Shown here piece after piece: positions 39,413 to 45,492 of a stretch of 64,000 nucleotides of DNA. The position numbers and the translations under genes are program-made. Below the pieces are notes generated by a model. The model had not been told where the DNA came from, ran no database searches, and saw only the letters and a program-made list of their open reading frames with translations. How positions within the stretch are numbered: position 1 is the stretch's first letter; every line of letters begins with the position of its first letter. The DNA is from Minwuia sp. (GTDB lineage: Bacteria > Pseudomonadota > Alphaproteobacteria > Minwuiales > Minwuiaceae), in the NCBI GenBank assembly GCA_029213165.1, contig JARGNO010000012.1:1-64000 (forward strand), written 5' to 3'.

Positions 39413-40432
39413 TCACCGCTTCACTTCAACCAGCCGCGACCCGTTCTCATGCGTCGTGACCTGAAAGCCCGTCCCGGTGAAACGCGTGATCAGCTTCGCC
39501 GCCGTCCGGCTGTGTTCGGTCAACCTGACCGTCGTGAAGGCACCGCCTTGTGCCATTGCGAAAGGCAACAGCAACTGGTCCTGCAGGTGCGGTCCGGCAA
39601 AGGCATCGGATCCGAGGTAGCCAGCCATGCGTTTCGCGGCGTTGCTTGCCAACCGTTCCGCCGGCAGGCCCAGCCGGGCGAATTCCGACCCGATTTCCGT
39701 GACATGTGCAAAACCGGCTTCGATCAGCAGGGCGTTGCCCGGCCCGCTGTCCGCTGAGAGTTGCTGTGGCACAAAGGCCTCCTCCGGCCAATCGGCCAGA
39801 ACCTTGTGCGCCGCTGCCAACTCACGCACGGCGATGTCGGGGTCGATACCTGCAATGATGGCCTTGACCGTGCCCTGTCTGAACGCGCCCCGATCGAGGC
39901 ATTCAATGGGGCGCAGCGGCGCAGGCGTGATATCGATGATGATCCTTCCGCCGCCGCGAGGGAAGAAGCCATGACGCTCCAGACGAATGTCGACCTGCGG
40001 TCCCATTCGCGCAATGACCGGCAACAGGGTCCGTTCGATGAACTCGAACGGTGGCGCAGCCAAGGTGTGTGTTCCGCCGTCGATAACCAGACGTGACGGA
40101 GCATCCGCAAGCAGCAGCGGAACCAGGACGGTCTGCAGCACCAGACCAGTGCTGCCAGCCGTGCCGACCGCGAAATGATAGTCGCCCGGCGTCACGCGAC
40201 CGGGCCGGAAGGTGATCTCGCTGGTACCCACCGTCAGGCCGGAACACTCGGCCCTGCCAATGGCGCAGGCAGCCTCCAGCGCCGTTACATGCTGGCGCAT
40301 CAAGCCGGGCCTGGCGCGGCCACCGCGAATGTTCCTGATCGTGAAAGGCTCCCCGGTCAACAGCGAGAGAGCCGCCGCATAGCGCAGCATCTGTCCGCCG
40401 CCTTCCCCTTCCGAGCCGTCTATCGTGAGCAT
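39413..40432 (-). CDS. rtcA: RNA 3'-terminal phosphate cyclase RtcA
   Basis: Converts RNA 3'-phosphate ends to 2',3'-cyclic phosphates via an adenylated enzyme. 339 residues. N-terminus IDGSEGEGGGQMLRYAAALS and GTAGSTGLVLQTVL are hallmark; the adenylated histidine lies in FAGPHLQDQLLLPFAMAQ. It is last in the leftward order rsr-RNA-RNA-rtcB-rtcA, 27 bases after rtcB, under the presumed sigma-54 promoter at 43.7 kb. Confidence 0.96.
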   Translation of the reverse strand: MLTIDGSEGEGGGQMLRYAAALSLLTGEPFTIRNIRGGRARPGLMRQHVTALEAACAIGRAECSGLTVGTSEITFRPGRVTPGDYHFAVGTAGSTGLVLQTVLVPLLLADAPSRLVIDGGTHTLAAPPFEFIERTLLPVIARMGPQVDIRLERHGFFPRGGGRIIIDITPAPLRPIECLDRGAFRQGTVKAIIAGIDPDIAVRELAAAHKVLADWPEEAFVPQQLSADSGPGNALLIEAGFAHVTEIGSEFARLGLPAERLASNAAKRMAGYLGSDAFAGPHLQDQLLLPFAMAQGGAFTTVRLTEHSRTAAKLITRFTGTGFQVTTHENGSRLVEVKR

Positions 40433-40459: not shown

Positions 40460-41695
40460 TCAGCCTTTCACGCAAACCACCTGCTTAAGGGTATGAACGA
40501 TCTCCACCAGGTCAGCCTGGGCCGCCATCACGGCCCCGATGGGCTTGTAGGCACTGGGCGTCTCGTCGATCACGCCTTCATCCTTGCGGCATTCGACACC
40601 GGCGGTATCAGCGACATGCTGCTCCAGCGTCACCAGTTCCTTCGCCTGCGTACGGCTCATCACGCGACCCGCCCCATGCGAACAACTGTCGAAACTGTGG
40701 GCATTGCCGAGGCCGCGCACGATGAAGCTCTTCGCCCCCATGGATCCGGGGATGATGCCCATGGTGCCCTTTGCCGCGCGCACTGCCCCCTTGCGGGTGA
40801 CCAGCACGTTCTCGCCGAAATGGTTCTCCCGCGTCACATAGTTGTGGTGACAGTCCACGGCTTCGCATTCGGCCTCGAACGGTCGCGCGATCATGGCACG
40901 CAGGGCGTCGAGCACATGGCTCATCATCACCCTGCGGTTCAGCGCCGCGAAATCCTGCGCCCAGGCAACCGCATCGACATAGTCGTCGAAATGGCTGGTT
41001 CCTTCCGGGAAGTAGGCAAGATCCTCGTCGGGCAGGTTGATGAACCAGGTGCGCATGTCCTGCCTGGCCAGTTCGATGAAGAACCGCCCGATAGCATTGC
41101 CGACGCCACGGCTTCCCGAATGCAGCATCACCCAGACACGGTCCTGCTGATCGAGGCATAGCTCGATGAAGTGGTTCCCGGTACCGAGTGTTCCGAGGTG
41201 AACCAGATGATTGGCCTTCAGCAGACGCGGGAACTTCCCGCACAATGCGTCAAACCGTGGGTGCAGCCGCGCCCATGCGTCGACCACCGCGCGTGGCGGA
41301 TCGCCCCATGCGCCCTTGTCCTGCGACCGGTTCAGGCCCCTTCCGCCGGACCGGCCGTGCGGCACCGCCGCCTCGATGGCTGACCGGACTCCGGAGAGGT
41401 TGTCGGGCAGATCGCTCGCTGTCAGCGAGGTCCGTGCCGCCATCATGCCGCAGCCGATATCCACACCCACCGCCGCCGGAATCACAGCGCCTTTGGTTGG
41501 AATGACCGAACCCACAGTCGCGCCGATCCCCAGATGGACATCGGGCATCACGGCTACATGACTGAAGATGAATGGCATCCGGGCCACCCTGGCGAGCTGG
41601 TCCCTGGCCTTTTCGTCGACCGTCACACCACGGGTCCACATCCTGATTGGCGAACCGCCTTCGACTTCCTGAATGTCGTGTGTCATTTCGGTCAT
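40460..41695 (-). CDS. rtcB: RNA ligase RtcB
   Basis: GTP- and Mn-dependent ligase joining 2',3'-cyclic or 3'-phosphate ends to 5'-OH RNA. 411 residues. Metal and catalytic residues: cysteine in AAVGVDIGCGMMAA, histidines in TLGTGNHFIELCLD and VMLHSGSRGVGNAI, nucleophile histidine in DSCSHGAGRVMSRTQA. AGGAGG lies seven bases before the ATG, directly downstream of the second Y-like RNA, so the RNA precursor and the message are one transcript. Confidence 0.97.
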   Translation of the reverse strand: MTEMTHDIQEVEGGSPIRMWTRGVTVDEKARDQLARVARMPFIFSHVAVMPDVHLGIGATVGSVIPTKGAVIPAAVGVDIGCGMMAARTSLTASDLPDNLSGVRSAIEAAVPHGRSGGRGLNRSQDKGAWGDPPRAVVDAWARLHPRFDALCGKFPRLLKANHLVHLGTLGTGNHFIELCLDQQDRVWVMLHSGSRGVGNAIGRFFIELARQDMRTWFINLPDEDLAYFPEGTSHFDDYVDAVAWAQDFAALNRRVMMSHVLDALRAMIARPFEAECEAVDCHHNYVTRENHFGENVLVTRKGAVRAAKGTMGIIPGSMGAKSFIVRGLGNAHSFDSCSHGAGRVMSRTQAKELVTLEQHVADTAGVECRKDEGVIDETPSAYKPIGAVMAAQADLVEIVHTLKQVVCVKG

Positions 41696-41723
41696 TGCGA
41701 CCTCCTCTACTCTTCATCAAGGG

Positions 41724-41859
41724 TCACGGCGACGAGACAATGGCTGGACTTCCCGTCCTGCGGGTCGAGTTGCCGATGCGCATTTGCGTACCTGCAGAGT
41801 TTCGAACCGGCAGTCCGGCGATCAGCGTATGATGTAGTCCACGCCGGCATTCGCCGTGA
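41724..41859 (-). ncRNA. Second Y-RNA-like non-coding RNA (YrlB-like), upstream of rtcB
   Basis: On the minus strand TCACGGCGA (41851-41859) pairs perfectly with TCGCCGTGA (41724-41732) to give the terminal stem. The 5' segment TCACGGCGAATGCC and the 3' segment TCTCGTCGCCGTGACCC are identical to those of the first RNA, as expected for a shared Rsr-binding end. Inside are CCGGCG/CGCCGG and CCCG/CGGG hairpins and a GGTTCGAA element, but no full T-arm or D-arm, so the tRNA-mimic module is missing or degenerate. Ends are defined only by the stem. Confidence 0.75.
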
Positions 41860-41880
41860 TTGGCCATGATCGTGTGCTGA

Positions 41881-42031
41881 GGGGTCACGGCGACGAGAAT
41901 TGGGAAAGACAACCCCTTTCGGGACAGTGCTCTGCCTGGCTGAGCTACCGCCGGTCACCCGGCGAGCGGGGTTCGAACCCGCGTCCTCTGTAATGCAAAT
42001 GTAGTCCTTCCCGGGCATTCGCCGTGACCCG
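41881..42031 (-). ncRNA. First Y-RNA-like non-coding RNA (YrlA-like) with permuted tRNA mimic
   Basis: Terminal stem GGGTCACGGCGA (42019-42030) with TCGCCGTGACCC (41882-41893), 12 bp perfect. Between them, in order: an anticodon-like arm CTACA-TTTGCAT-TACAG (41988-42004, two adjacent A-C mismatches), T-arm GCGGG-TTCGAAC-CCCGC (41966-41982), acceptor-like stem CGCCGG-GTGA-CCGGCG closed by a GNRA loop (41949-41964), D-arm GCTC-AGCCAGGCA-GAGC (41929-41945), and a CCC-GAAA-GGG hairpin. It lies between rsr and rtcB, where enterobacterial Yrl RNAs are found. It binds Rsr by inference. Confidence 0.88.
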
Positions 42032-42037
42032 GCTCAG

Positions 42038-43597
42038 TCAGATATCCACTTCGTTGATGATTTCGACCCAATCCCGGGATTTCCCGGCTGCGAAACGTGC
42101 CATCGCGTCGAAAACGGCGTCGGTGAAGCCACCGACATTCATGATGTCCTTGCGGTCCCTTGCCTGCGTCGATCCGTAGGGCTGGATGTCGATGCAGACC
42201 AGTTTCGCACCCGGGTTGCGGGCTTTCAGCCTGTTCCATTCCCGCATTGTCGCCGTGGCGTCGCCGTATGATCGGTCAGACGGAACATCGAACCATGACT
42301 GGTTGTCCGAGACGATGATGACCGTATCGACCTTCGCCCTCTGCCGGTTCAATCGTGCGAGCGGTGCGGAAACATTGGTTCCCCCGCCACCAAGCGACGC
42401 AAGTTTCGCGGCGTTCACTGCGACGCGGGCATCGGGGTCGAGAGTCATGTCAACGACACCGACCTCGAATGGCAGGACGCGGGTTTGCGGATTGCTCCGC
42501 AGCATTGCGGCCGCCACAAGCGCGGCGATGTCGATGCAGCGCACGACCGAGGTTGCCCCCTCACGATATCCCGTCACCGGACTGTGCATCGATGCCGAGA
42601 CATCGGGACAGACGACGACATTGCCCTTCAGCCTCGGAACCTTCGCGAGCGAGCGTTCCAGAGCCTTCTCGAGCGCAGCCTGGACCGCCAGTGGAACGCT
42701 CTCCCCCACTTGCGAGAGGGCAGTCAGCAACTGGTAGGGGGCCGGGCGAACCCGCGCCATTTCCCTTTCGTCCGCCAGACGGGCGGCAACCATTTCCGTC
42801 ACGCCCCCGACACGAAACGCGCCATGCCGGGCGAGCGTGTTGAGGTTCATCCGCAACGCCTGCCAGCCCATGCGGCTGGCCAGAACTGCCCATTGCTCCG
42901 CATCCAGTTCGAATGATGTCAGCCATTCGTACGGCACATTCGGCAGGGCGCGCGAGCGGTCGGCCTTCCAGGCTTCGAAATCCCTGATCTCGACCGGCAA
43001 GGCGGCGACATCGTAGGGCTTGCCGATCAGCCAGCCATAGAAAGCGCGCCGGCTGGCATCGGCGGGGGCCGGATGAACCATCTTCACGATGTCTGCCAGA
43101 CTGGGGTTCCTGCCTGTCGCCGCCTGCGTGAGTTGACGGACTGACGCGGTCTTCAGCCACTCGCGCACCAGCCGCTTTGGTCGGGTGCCCAGCGACGTGC
43201 GTCCAGCCTGGCCGGAACGCATGATCTGCACGAAACTGCGAAGCATGCGTCCATTGTCGATCACACGCTTGAAGACGAGAACCGAGAGGTCCGGGTCCGA
43301 TATCGTGAGCAAGGCGGTCAGCAGCGCCGGAATGTCCTTCATCGCACCGGACTGCCTGGCATGGATCGCGCATTTGGCGACCCATACGGCATCCACACCA
43401 CGCGCGGCCTCGATCACATCGAAAAGCTGTGTCTGCGCGTCCGAATAATAACCGTCCGACAGCGTGCCAGTGGCGGCAAGCTGCGCCAGTCTCGTCTCCG
43501 CACCAAGGGCATAGGCAATTCCATCGGCCTCATTCACGGTGTCGACCGTCGGCAGGAATGTTACCAACGGCGAGGAGAACAGGAATTTGTTGGCCAT
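42038..43597 (-). CDS. rsr: Ro60 ortholog Rsr (TROVE and von Willebrand A domains)
   Basis: Ring-shaped RNA-binding protein that holds Y RNAs and helps RNases handle misfolded or damaged RNA. 519 residues. TROVE HEAT-repeat ring occupies about residues 20-325 (AVWVAKCAIHARQSGAMKDI, RRAFYGWLIGKPYDVAALP); the vWA domain begins near 330 with the MIDAS motif VVCPDVSASMHSPV and continues TVIIVSDNQSWFD. GGAG seven bases upstream of the ATG. First gene of the leftward RNA-repair operon; its stop is seven bases from the first Y-like RNA. Confidence 0.96.
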   Translation of the reverse strand: MANKFLFSSPLVTFLPTVDTVNEADGIAYALGAETRLAQLAATGTLSDGYYSDAQTQLFDVIEAARGVDAVWVAKCAIHARQSGAMKDIPALLTALLTISDPDLSVLVFKRVIDNGRMLRSFVQIMRSGQAGRTSLGTRPKRLVREWLKTASVRQLTQAATGRNPSLADIVKMVHPAPADASRRAFYGWLIGKPYDVAALPVEIRDFEAWKADRSRALPNVPYEWLTSFELDAEQWAVLASRMGWQALRMNLNTLARHGAFRVGGVTEMVAARLADEREMARVRPAPYQLLTALSQVGESVPLAVQAALEKALERSLAKVPRLKGNVVVCPDVSASMHSPVTGYREGATSVVRCIDIAALVAAAMLRSNPQTRVLPFEVGVVDMTLDPDARVAVNAAKLASLGGGGTNVSAPLARLNRQRAKVDTVIIVSDNQSWFDVPSDRSYGDATATMREWNRLKARNPGAKLVCIDIQPYGSTQARDRKDIMNVGGFTDAVFDAMARFAAGKSRDWVEIINEVDI

Positions 43598-43706: not shown

Positions 43707-43722
43707 CGCAGGGGCCATGCCA
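43707..43722 (-). promoter_or_regulatory. Sigma-54 promoter of the rsr-rtcBA operon
   Basis: Minus strand TGGCATGGCCCCTGCG: the GG at -24 and GC at -12 are separated by exactly ten bases, close to TGGCAC-N5-TTGCA. About 110 bases upstream of rsr. The divergent gene encodes a sigma-54 activator, which makes this reading strong. Confidence 0.75.
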
Positions 43723-43863: not shown

Positions 43864-45492
43864 ATGCGATCATTGACTGTCATCGGGTTTCTTGGTTCGA
43901 CCCTGGATGCCGCCCGGTTCGATCCCTCGCGCTGGGACAAGTGGCGCCCGACGGTCAGCATCTGCATGCAGGAGGACCTGCGTGTGGATCGCTTTGTGCT
44001 GATCCACGGAAGCCAGCACCAGCGGCTTGCAGAGTTCGTGGCGCAGGATATCTGCGATGTCTCTCCCGAGACCGCGGTCTCTCCGCATATGATGGATTTC
44101 GACGACGCGTGGGACTTCGAGGAGGTCTACGGCAAGCTGCTGGATTTCGCGCGCGGGTATCCGTTCGACCCCGATGCGGAGGATTATCTGGTCCATATCA
44201 CCACCGGAACGCATGTGGCCCAGATCTGCCTGTTCCTGTTGACTGAGGCCCGCTATCTGCCAGGCCGGCTGCTGCAGACACAGACGCAGAAGCGTGGTCC
44301 GCGATCCCTGGGCAAATGGGCTGTGATCGACCTGGATCTGTCACGCTATGATTCAATTGCGACCCGCTTCGCGGAGGCAAGTGCGGAGAGCACGAGTTTC
44401 CTGAAGCGTGGAATCAATACCCGCAACCCGCATTTCAACCGGATGATCGAGGAGATCGAGCAGGTGGCCGTGCGCAGCCGCGCGCCGATCCTGCTGATGG
44501 GGCCGACAGGCGCGGGCAAGAGCCAACTGGCGCGCAAGGTCCACGAACTGAAGAAGTTGCGGCATCAGATCAACGGTCCGTTTGTCGAAGTGAACTGCGC
44601 GACGCTGAAGGGCGACAGCGCCATGTCGGCGTTGTTCGGTCACAGGAAAGGGGCCTTCACCGGGGCCGTGCAGGACCGCCCCGGCCTGCTCAGGGGCGCG
44701 GACAAGGGATTGCTTTTTCTGGACGAGATCGGAGAGCTTGGCCTCGACGAACAGGCGATGATCCTTCGTGCGATCGAAGAGGGGCGTTTCCTGCCTGTCG
44801 GCGCGGACAGCGAAGTGAAGAGCGAATTCCAGCTTCTCGCCGGGACCAACCGAAATCTGATGAACGAGGTCGCCGCCGGGAACTTCCGCGACGACCTGTT
44901 CGCCCGTCTGAACCTCTGGACCTTCTTCCTGCCGGGTCTGGCGGAGCGACGGGAGGATATTGCGCCGAACCTCGATTACGAACTGGAACGTTTCGCTGAG
45001 CGAGAGGGGACACGTGTGACCTTCAACAGGGAGGCCCGCGGGCGCTACCTGGCATTCGCGGAGAGTCCGTCAGCGCTGTGGAAAGGCAATTTCCGCGATC
45101 TGGCGGCCAGCGTGACACGCATGGCAACGCTCAGCCCGACGGGGCGCATCGACAGGGCTGCTGTTGATCTCGAAGTGTCGCGCCTGACACGGCTCTGGTC
45201 GGGGCAGGAAGGCGGCGAAGCCTCTCACGGCAGTCTGCTCGGGGCTGAGATGGCAGCGGAGATCGATCCCTTCGACCGGGTCCAACTCGACTACGTGCTT
45301 GAAACCTGTCGGCGCTGCCGCAGCCTGTCCGAAGCGGGGCGAACCCTCTTCGCGGTTTCCAGGAAGCAGCGAAAATCCACCAATGACGCCGACCGGCTGC
45401 GAAAGTATCTGGCCCGGTTCGGCATGAGCTGGGATGACGTCAGTGGGCCCGGCGCTCCCCTGCGCATGGGTCGAAATCCGGACGGCAACTGA
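43864..45492 (+). CDS. rtcR: RtcR, sigma-54-dependent activator of the RNA repair operon
   Basis: 542 residues. N-terminal CARF-like sensor domain (MRSLTVIGFLGSTLDAARF to about 180), which in the family is thought to bind a nucleotide ligand made on RNA damage; AAA+ domain with Walker A MGPTGAGKSQ near residue 213 and the sigma-54 contacting GAFTGA loop near 263 (GHRKGAFTGA), Walker B LLFLDEIGELG; C-terminal helix-turn-helix region ending in RKYLARFGMSW. Divergent from rsr. No clear ribosome site before the ATG, whose leader is very AT-rich. Confidence 0.95.
   Translation: MRSLTVIGFLGSTLDAARFDPSRWDKWRPTVSICMQEDLRVDRFVLIHGSQHQRLAEFVAQDICDVSPETAVSPHMMDFDDAWDFEEVYGKLLDFARGYPFDPDAEDYLVHITTGTHVAQICLFLLTEARYLPGRLLQTQTQKRGPRSLGKWAVIDLDLSRYDSIATRFAEASAESTSFLKRGINTRNPHFNRMIEEIEQVAVRSRAPILLMGPTGAGKSQLARKVHELKKLRHQINGPFVEVNCATLKGDSAMSALFGHRKGAFTGAVQDRPGLLRGADKGLLFLDEIGELGLDEQAMILRAIEEGRFLPVGADSEVKSEFQLLAGTNRNLMNEVAAGNFRDDLFARLNLWTFFLPGLAERREDIAPNLDYELERFAEREGTRVTFNREARGRYLAFAESPSALWKGNFRDLAASVTRMATLSPTGRIDRAAVDLEVSRLTRLWSGQEGGEASHGSLLGAEMAAEIDPFDRVQLDYVLETCRRCRSLSEAGRTLFAVSRKQRKSTNDADRLRKYLARFGMSWDDVSGPGAPLRMGRNPDGN

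Follow-up and report, generated by a model that had tools for sequence, protein, structure and literature searches.

The locus described here has the make-up of the rsr-yrl-rtcBA operon of Salmonella (PMC7790460, PMC9879122). In Salmonella, its inducers are 5' tRNA halves with a cyclic phosphate, which result from anticodon-loop cleavage and activate RtcR (PMC7790460). PNPase is bound by both Salmonella Rsr and YrlA (PMC9879122, PMC8394870). YrlA has been proposed as an anticodon nuclease competitor, and an SOS-induced anticodon nuclease left Salmonella YrlA uncleaved (PMC7790460), which argues against a cleavable bait but not against a competitor. Circularly permuted tRNA mimicry by YrlA has already been published (ARTEMIS paper, PMC11472068, on PDB 6CU1).

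The window analyzed here, a whole stretch of 64,000 nucleotides, has the gene order of the Salmonella operon. Y RNA unit 1 lies between rsr/Ro60 and rtcB-rtcA, about 6 bases beyond the end of rsr; a second Y RNA precedes rtcB, and rtcR is divergent (Table 1). An adjacent rsr, a basal stem with the GGCGAAUGC motif and a permuted T/acceptor/D module, three marks of YrlA, were present in the window. With good confidence as to identity and architecture, the feature under study is the tRNA-like, putative effector module of a Y RNA of the YrlA type, encoded in an operon for Ro60 and RNA repair.

Table 1. Positions of the Y RNA parts and neighboring genes in the window
Feature	Positions	Strand	Evidence or remark
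rtcA RNA 3'-phosphate cyclase	39413..40432	-	Pfam RTC 4e-72
rtcB RNA ligase	40460..41695	-	Pfam RtcB 4.4e-128
Second Y RNA	41718..41861	-	Same basal motifs; fold z -1.95; RF02553 only 15.6 bits
YrlA-type Y RNA unit 1 (152 nt)	41881..42032	-	RF02553 45.2 bits, E 6e-9; fold z -4.4; orthologues right after rsr
Basal stem 3' strand, CGTCGCC	41881..41897	-	
Side hairpin CCC-GAAA-GGG, between anticodon strand and second stem	41913..41923	-	MFE
Anticodon stem 5' strand CUGU (27-30), beyond permutation junction	41924..41927	-	Predicted partner ACAG 41988-41991
D-arm GCTC-AGCCAGGCA-GAGC, GG in loop	41929..41945	-	Stem invariant in 14 orthologues
Acceptor-like stem TCGCCGG-GTGA-CCGGCGG, 7 bp including one G-U	41948..41965	-	GTGA cap instead of NCCA
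T-arm GCGGG-TTCGAAC-CCCGC	41966..41982	-	
Variable loop AGGAC (44-48)	41983..41987	-	G46, C48 unchanged across 14 orthologues
Anticodon stem 3' strand UACAG (39-43)	41988..41992	-	Covariation with strand 3' of D-arm
Probable anticodon loop UUUGCAU, positions 32-38, anticodon UGC	41993..41999	-	6/7 vs E. coli tRNA-Ala(UGC); genuine anticodon loops frequent at this offset in relatives
Second stem 5' strand GGGAAGGAC	42004..42012	-	Partner 41902-41910 (fold)
Basal stem 5' strand with GGCGAATGC motif (putative Rsr/Ro60 handle)	42013..42030	-	12-bp helix with 41882-41893
rsr (bacterial Ro60)	42038..43597	-	Pfam vWA_Ro60 4.4e-14
Sigma-54-type promoter box TGGCATGGCCCCTGC, upstream of rsr	43708..43722	-	Consensus match
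rtcR, CARF/sigma-54 activator	43864..45492	+	Pfam RtcR 6.3e-81

The operon and the permuted tRNA-like module

The ring domain of the window Rsr (42038-43597, minus strand) is divergent: the protein matched the vWA_Ro60 domain but had no Pfam TROVE match at an E value of 0.001. Sigma-54-type boxes like that of the window were found at -115 to -123 in four of the six relatives checked (L012, L021, L023, and L025), and no such box was found upstream of rsr in the other two (L009 and L017). Six relatives (L009, L010, L011, L014, L017, and L021) have a gap of 450-900 bases between rtcB and rtcA, a gap that is almost nil in the window; the Y motif scan detected no Y RNA unit in these gaps.

The operon was absent from the sampled members of the window's genus, rsr was present in 6 of 385 sampled genomes of the class, and YrlA in 1 of 9 sampled in the order. 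The nearest rsr genes belong to Hwanghaeella and Erythrobacteraceae, and horizontal transfer of the operon is likely. No close Rsr relatives were found in viral contigs. Myxococcus phage Mx1 (L131) carries a 45% identical rsr relative near tRNA-Gly and peptidyl-tRNA hydrolase genes, and no Y array was seen in the 650 bases downstream of it.

A sequence-only reading of this DNA had described a Y-like RNA holding a tRNA mimic that is circularly permuted and sealed again where the acceptor ends meet. The T-arm, the 7-bp acceptor-like stem with its GTGA tetraloop, and the D-arm were all recovered on the minus strand where that reading had placed them. A T-arm/acceptor/D-arm descriptor matched once in the 64 kb window, at this module, and in none of 300 mononucleotide shuffles; the permuted module is real and lies far above chance level. 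We aligned 14 unit-1 orthologues (alignment A1), which are mutually related, so that cell counts are not independent events. The acceptor helix was paired in 97.7% of cells, with compensatory changes in five of seven pairs, and the window module keeps the tRNA core letters U8, A14, G15, G18G19, A21, G46, C48, and A58, both of which bear out the permuted mimic. Compensatory changes were seen in the acceptor stem and in the stem across the junction (see below); the T and D stems, paired in 100% of cells, were almost invariant.

The module is predicted to be almost a whole tRNA. A GNRA-type tetraloop would seal its covalent circle at the acceptor end, and the circle would open within the 5' strand of the anticodon stem, in the window between positions 30 and 31. 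The earlier placement of the cut, between the anticodon and D arms, was not supported. Both loose ends of the opened tRNA lead into the predicted Ro60-binding stem, whose GGCGAATGC motif is common to all Y units in relatives. The true outer limits of the permuted module are approximately 41921-42007. The 82-nt interval first noted lacks the Y stem and for that reason gave no excess stability when folded by itself (z -0.76). The GAGGAC that had been called variable-like was partly correct: AGGAC is the variable loop, whereas the first G is G43. The side hairpin CCC-GAAA-GGG is variable, being present in some orthologues and missing in others. No single parent tRNA was assignable to the window module; the best scores were those of Pro (34) and of Asp and Lys (31), with null scores of up to 23.

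The anticodon stem and the probable anticodon loop

For the ACAG 3' strand, the predicted partner is CUGU, which follows the D-arm on the far side of the permutation junction. The helix 27-29:41-43 was paired in 100% of 42 cells among the 14 orthologues, with compensatory changes in three of three pairs (16 cells) and a covariation score of 1.055 versus 0.346 in shuffles. The composite stem of the window has 5 bp, made up of ACAG-CUGU (4 bp) and A31-U39. Fold energies were -75.5 kcal/mol for the MFE, -74.9 kcal/mol with ACAG-CUGU, and -67.0 kcal/mol with the CUACA-UACAG hairpin, corresponding to costs of 0.6 and 8.5 kcal/mol relative to the MFE. Since the single-sequence MFE does not select the composite stem, the case for it rests on covariation. 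Two A-C mismatches had been read as a hint of deliberate loosening or decay of the anticodon stem. That idea was discarded, since the strand with which the stem properly pairs is found downstream. With CUGU as the partner of ACAG both mismatches vanish; they are products of wrong pairing partners and arise solely when CUACA is set against UACAG.

As had been proposed, UUUGCAU probably represents a genuine anticodon loop with anticodon UGC; it differs from the UUUGCAC of E. coli tRNA-Ala(UGC) only at position 38 (U38 versus C38). In relatives the 7 nt preceding the 3' strand likewise read as an anticodon loop, CUGCCAA in Hwanghaeella, CUCAGGA in Qipengyuania, and UUGAUAA in Novosphingobium. When 130 T-arms from relatives were used as anchors, the offset predicted from tRNA gave 16 exact anticodon-loop matches (approximately 0.4 expected), and other offsets gave 0-5. 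Hairpins with 7-nt loops after the Y motif (n = 63) contained U33 together with R37 in 38 cases (null 3.2) and exact tRNA anticodon loops in 20 (null 0.02).

We then considered 33 distinct modules with a closed anticodon stem, chosen by the inner hairpin alone; their rows are related, and the counts are not independent events. U33 and A37 were each present in 31 of the 33, together with 17 different anticodon triplets, and the pairs 27-28:42-43 were formed in 66 of 66 cases (on average 45.9 in shuffles, none of 2000 of which reached 66). The loop is not essential to unit 1, as three orthologues (L011, L023, and L025) have lost it. Isolated anticodon hairpins, with neither T-arm nor D-arm, were also observed (L013_1, L016_1, and L132_1). 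Sequence and covariation together establish the predicted architecture, its array context, and a tRNA-like constraint on the loop.

Y RNA arrays in related loci

Thirty-eight loci, a few of them duplicates of one genome, were scanned for Y units. Every locus but the window, which has two, contained 3-6 units downstream of rsr, and the arrays sit between rsr and rtcB wherever rtcB is in reach. Each Y unit of the arrays in L009-L027 and L113-L127 has a different tRNA-like module. Unit 3 of relatives is almost a whole tRNA, with a 7-bp acceptor, mostly ACCA, and a linker; some copies have the ACCA degraded to AACA, AGCA, ATAA, or ATCA. The Erythrobacter longus unit 3 (L017:5930-6099) keeps its ACCA and is a permuted copy that agrees with a host tRNA(CAU) at 55 of 58 positions outside the anticodon arm. 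The second Y RNA of the window has a degenerate tRNA-like interior resembling array unit 3, in which the T-arm no longer pairs.

In a second class of units the cut falls within the D-loop, and it is the D stem that forms across the junction (GCTC/GAGC, GCTT/AAGC, or GCAT/ATGC); the anticodon loop of these units is often a tetraloop. Rfam calls units 1 and 3 YrlA and misses the other units, except for one weak exception in L021; the D-loop-cut class has no Rfam family. A Salmonella-type record (L129), a short unverified contig that carries a phage label, contains YrlB, YrlA, and then a third Y RNA (L129:922-1036), which appears from its sequence to be of the D-loop-cut kind. This third RNA had no Rfam match and no copy in the E. 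coli collection. On a Xanthomonas sacchari plasmid (L136:4099-4228, 4360-4488), two near-identical tandem Y RNAs carry different loops, CUCCGAA (Arg CCG) and CUCUUAA (Lys CUU).

Possible function and comparison with known systems

A mechanism can be proposed in which anticodon nucleases or other damage would generate tRNA halves, and RtcR would then turn the operon on. Rsr-bound Y RNAs, as mimics of tRNA and its anticodon loop, would serve as decoys or competitors for enzymes that cut or bind tRNA, RtcA and RtcB would meanwhile repair the real tRNAs, and the diversity of anticodons over units and species would track the diversity of attackers. An RtcR-induced, Ro60-tethered decoy or competitor function is plausible, at somewhat less than even chances. 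More tentatively still, the Y RNA arrays of Ro60 operons may be modular tRNA decoys whose units expose different tRNA parts in at least two permutations (anticodon stem or D-loop), with interchangeable bait-like loops against anticodon nucleases and an RtcR-controlled supply. The role of Y RNAs in RNA-repair operons was posed as an open question (PMC7790460). The arrays, with constrained loops and variable anticodons, turn it into a concrete one, namely whether anticodon nucleases are kept off tRNAs by these RNAs and whether the anticodon decides which ones. Two permutation topologies in one operon also provide a natural series of tRNA mimics for probing which tRNA parts Ro60 partners, PNPase, RtcB, and modification enzymes recognize.

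The module might instead act only as an adaptor that docks PNPase, as exonuclease, or tRNA-binding proteins to Rsr, with no role for the anticodon loop. PNPase binding in Salmonella (PMC9879122, PMC8394870) and the orthologues without an anticodon loop are consistent with this, but it leaves unexplained both the U33/A37 constraint with 17 variable triplets and the isolated anticodon hairpins, and we consider it rather unlikely. A lower probability is given to passive relics, that is, modules captured from various tRNAs whose anticodon loops are functionless, drifting leftovers. Such capture would suit the near-identity of the Erythrobacter longus unit 3 to a host tRNA and the U38 of the window where E. 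coli tRNA-Ala has C38; drift, however, should neither hold U33 and A37 in 31 of 33 modules while positions 34-36 vary nor preserve the across-junction stems by compensatory change.

The sequence-only reading had favored a self-contained hairpin, CUACA-UUUGCAU-UACAG, a cut at the anticodon/D boundary, and descent from tRNA-Ala. Its loop is indeed like that of tRNA-Ala(UGC), and in L012, L121, and L123 all of CUACA can pair with the 3' strand. However, among Y units CUACA is a motif that hardly varies, and covariation contradicts the hairpin: its upper part (CUA with CAG) was paired in 71% of cells among the 14 orthologues with no compensatory change, and the pairing lies 8.5 kcal/mol above the MFE. 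AlaRS reads G3:U70 in the acceptor stem. The window module has G-C at positions 3-70 and no Ala signature elsewhere, it resembles tRNAs for Pro and Asp most, and other anticodons occur in the orthologues; descent from tRNA-Ala is not upheld, and this model as a whole is very unlikely. Even less probable is a permuted tRNA gene from which RNase P, CCA end formation, and RtcB ligation would produce a working tRNA. The 7-bp acceptor, the mostly retained ACCA, and the linker in unit 3 of relatives, and the adjacent RtcB, fit such a gene, but the window unit has a GTGA tetraloop and neither a CCA end nor a processing site between the halves, the ACCA is degraded in some unit 3 copies, and bodies and anticodons are not of the same amino acid. 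An ordinary tRNA-Ala gene, as called by ARAGORN at 41957-42026 (minus strand), is scarcely credible: the RF00005 tRNA score was 21.9 bits, under the cut-off of 29, the 5' strand of ARAGORN's 'acceptor' is the conserved stem predicted to bind Ro60, and the Y RNA fold and synteny contradict the call.

The preferred reading, a YrlA-type Y RNA with a permuted tRNA-like module, can be set beside four known systems. The Y RNA of Deinococcus tethers the Ro60 ring protein to an effector in RYPER, and the window Y RNA is likened to it by description, not by sequence. Permuted tRNA genes of red algae carry the 3' half before the 5' half and mature into tRNAs; the window module has the same order of halves but, unlike them, a tetraloop-capped acceptor and ends fused to the Ro60 stem. 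YrlB (RF02565) belongs to the same operon and shares the basal stem, but unlike unit 1 it is short and has no tRNA-like T- or D-arm. YrlA (RF02553; Salmonella YrlA, PDB 6CU1) is likewise located between rsr and rtcB and shares the basal stem motifs and the circularly permuted order of T-arm, acceptor stem, and D-arm. Unit 1 scored 45.2 bits with RF02553 against a gathering cut-off of 69, Salmonella YrlA scored 70.9, and most relatives scored 48-68. Two features set the window unit apart from YrlA, a probable anticodon loop of 7 nt with U33/A37 and a stem predicted to close across the junction. This loop is missing from the RF02553 consensus, and that of Salmonella YrlA is, by our own reading, approximately 6 nt. 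Judged against Rfam and the open literature searched, the anticodon loops, the D-loop-cut units, and the large arrays appear to be new, as do arrays of tRNA mimics with different anticodon loops in relatives.
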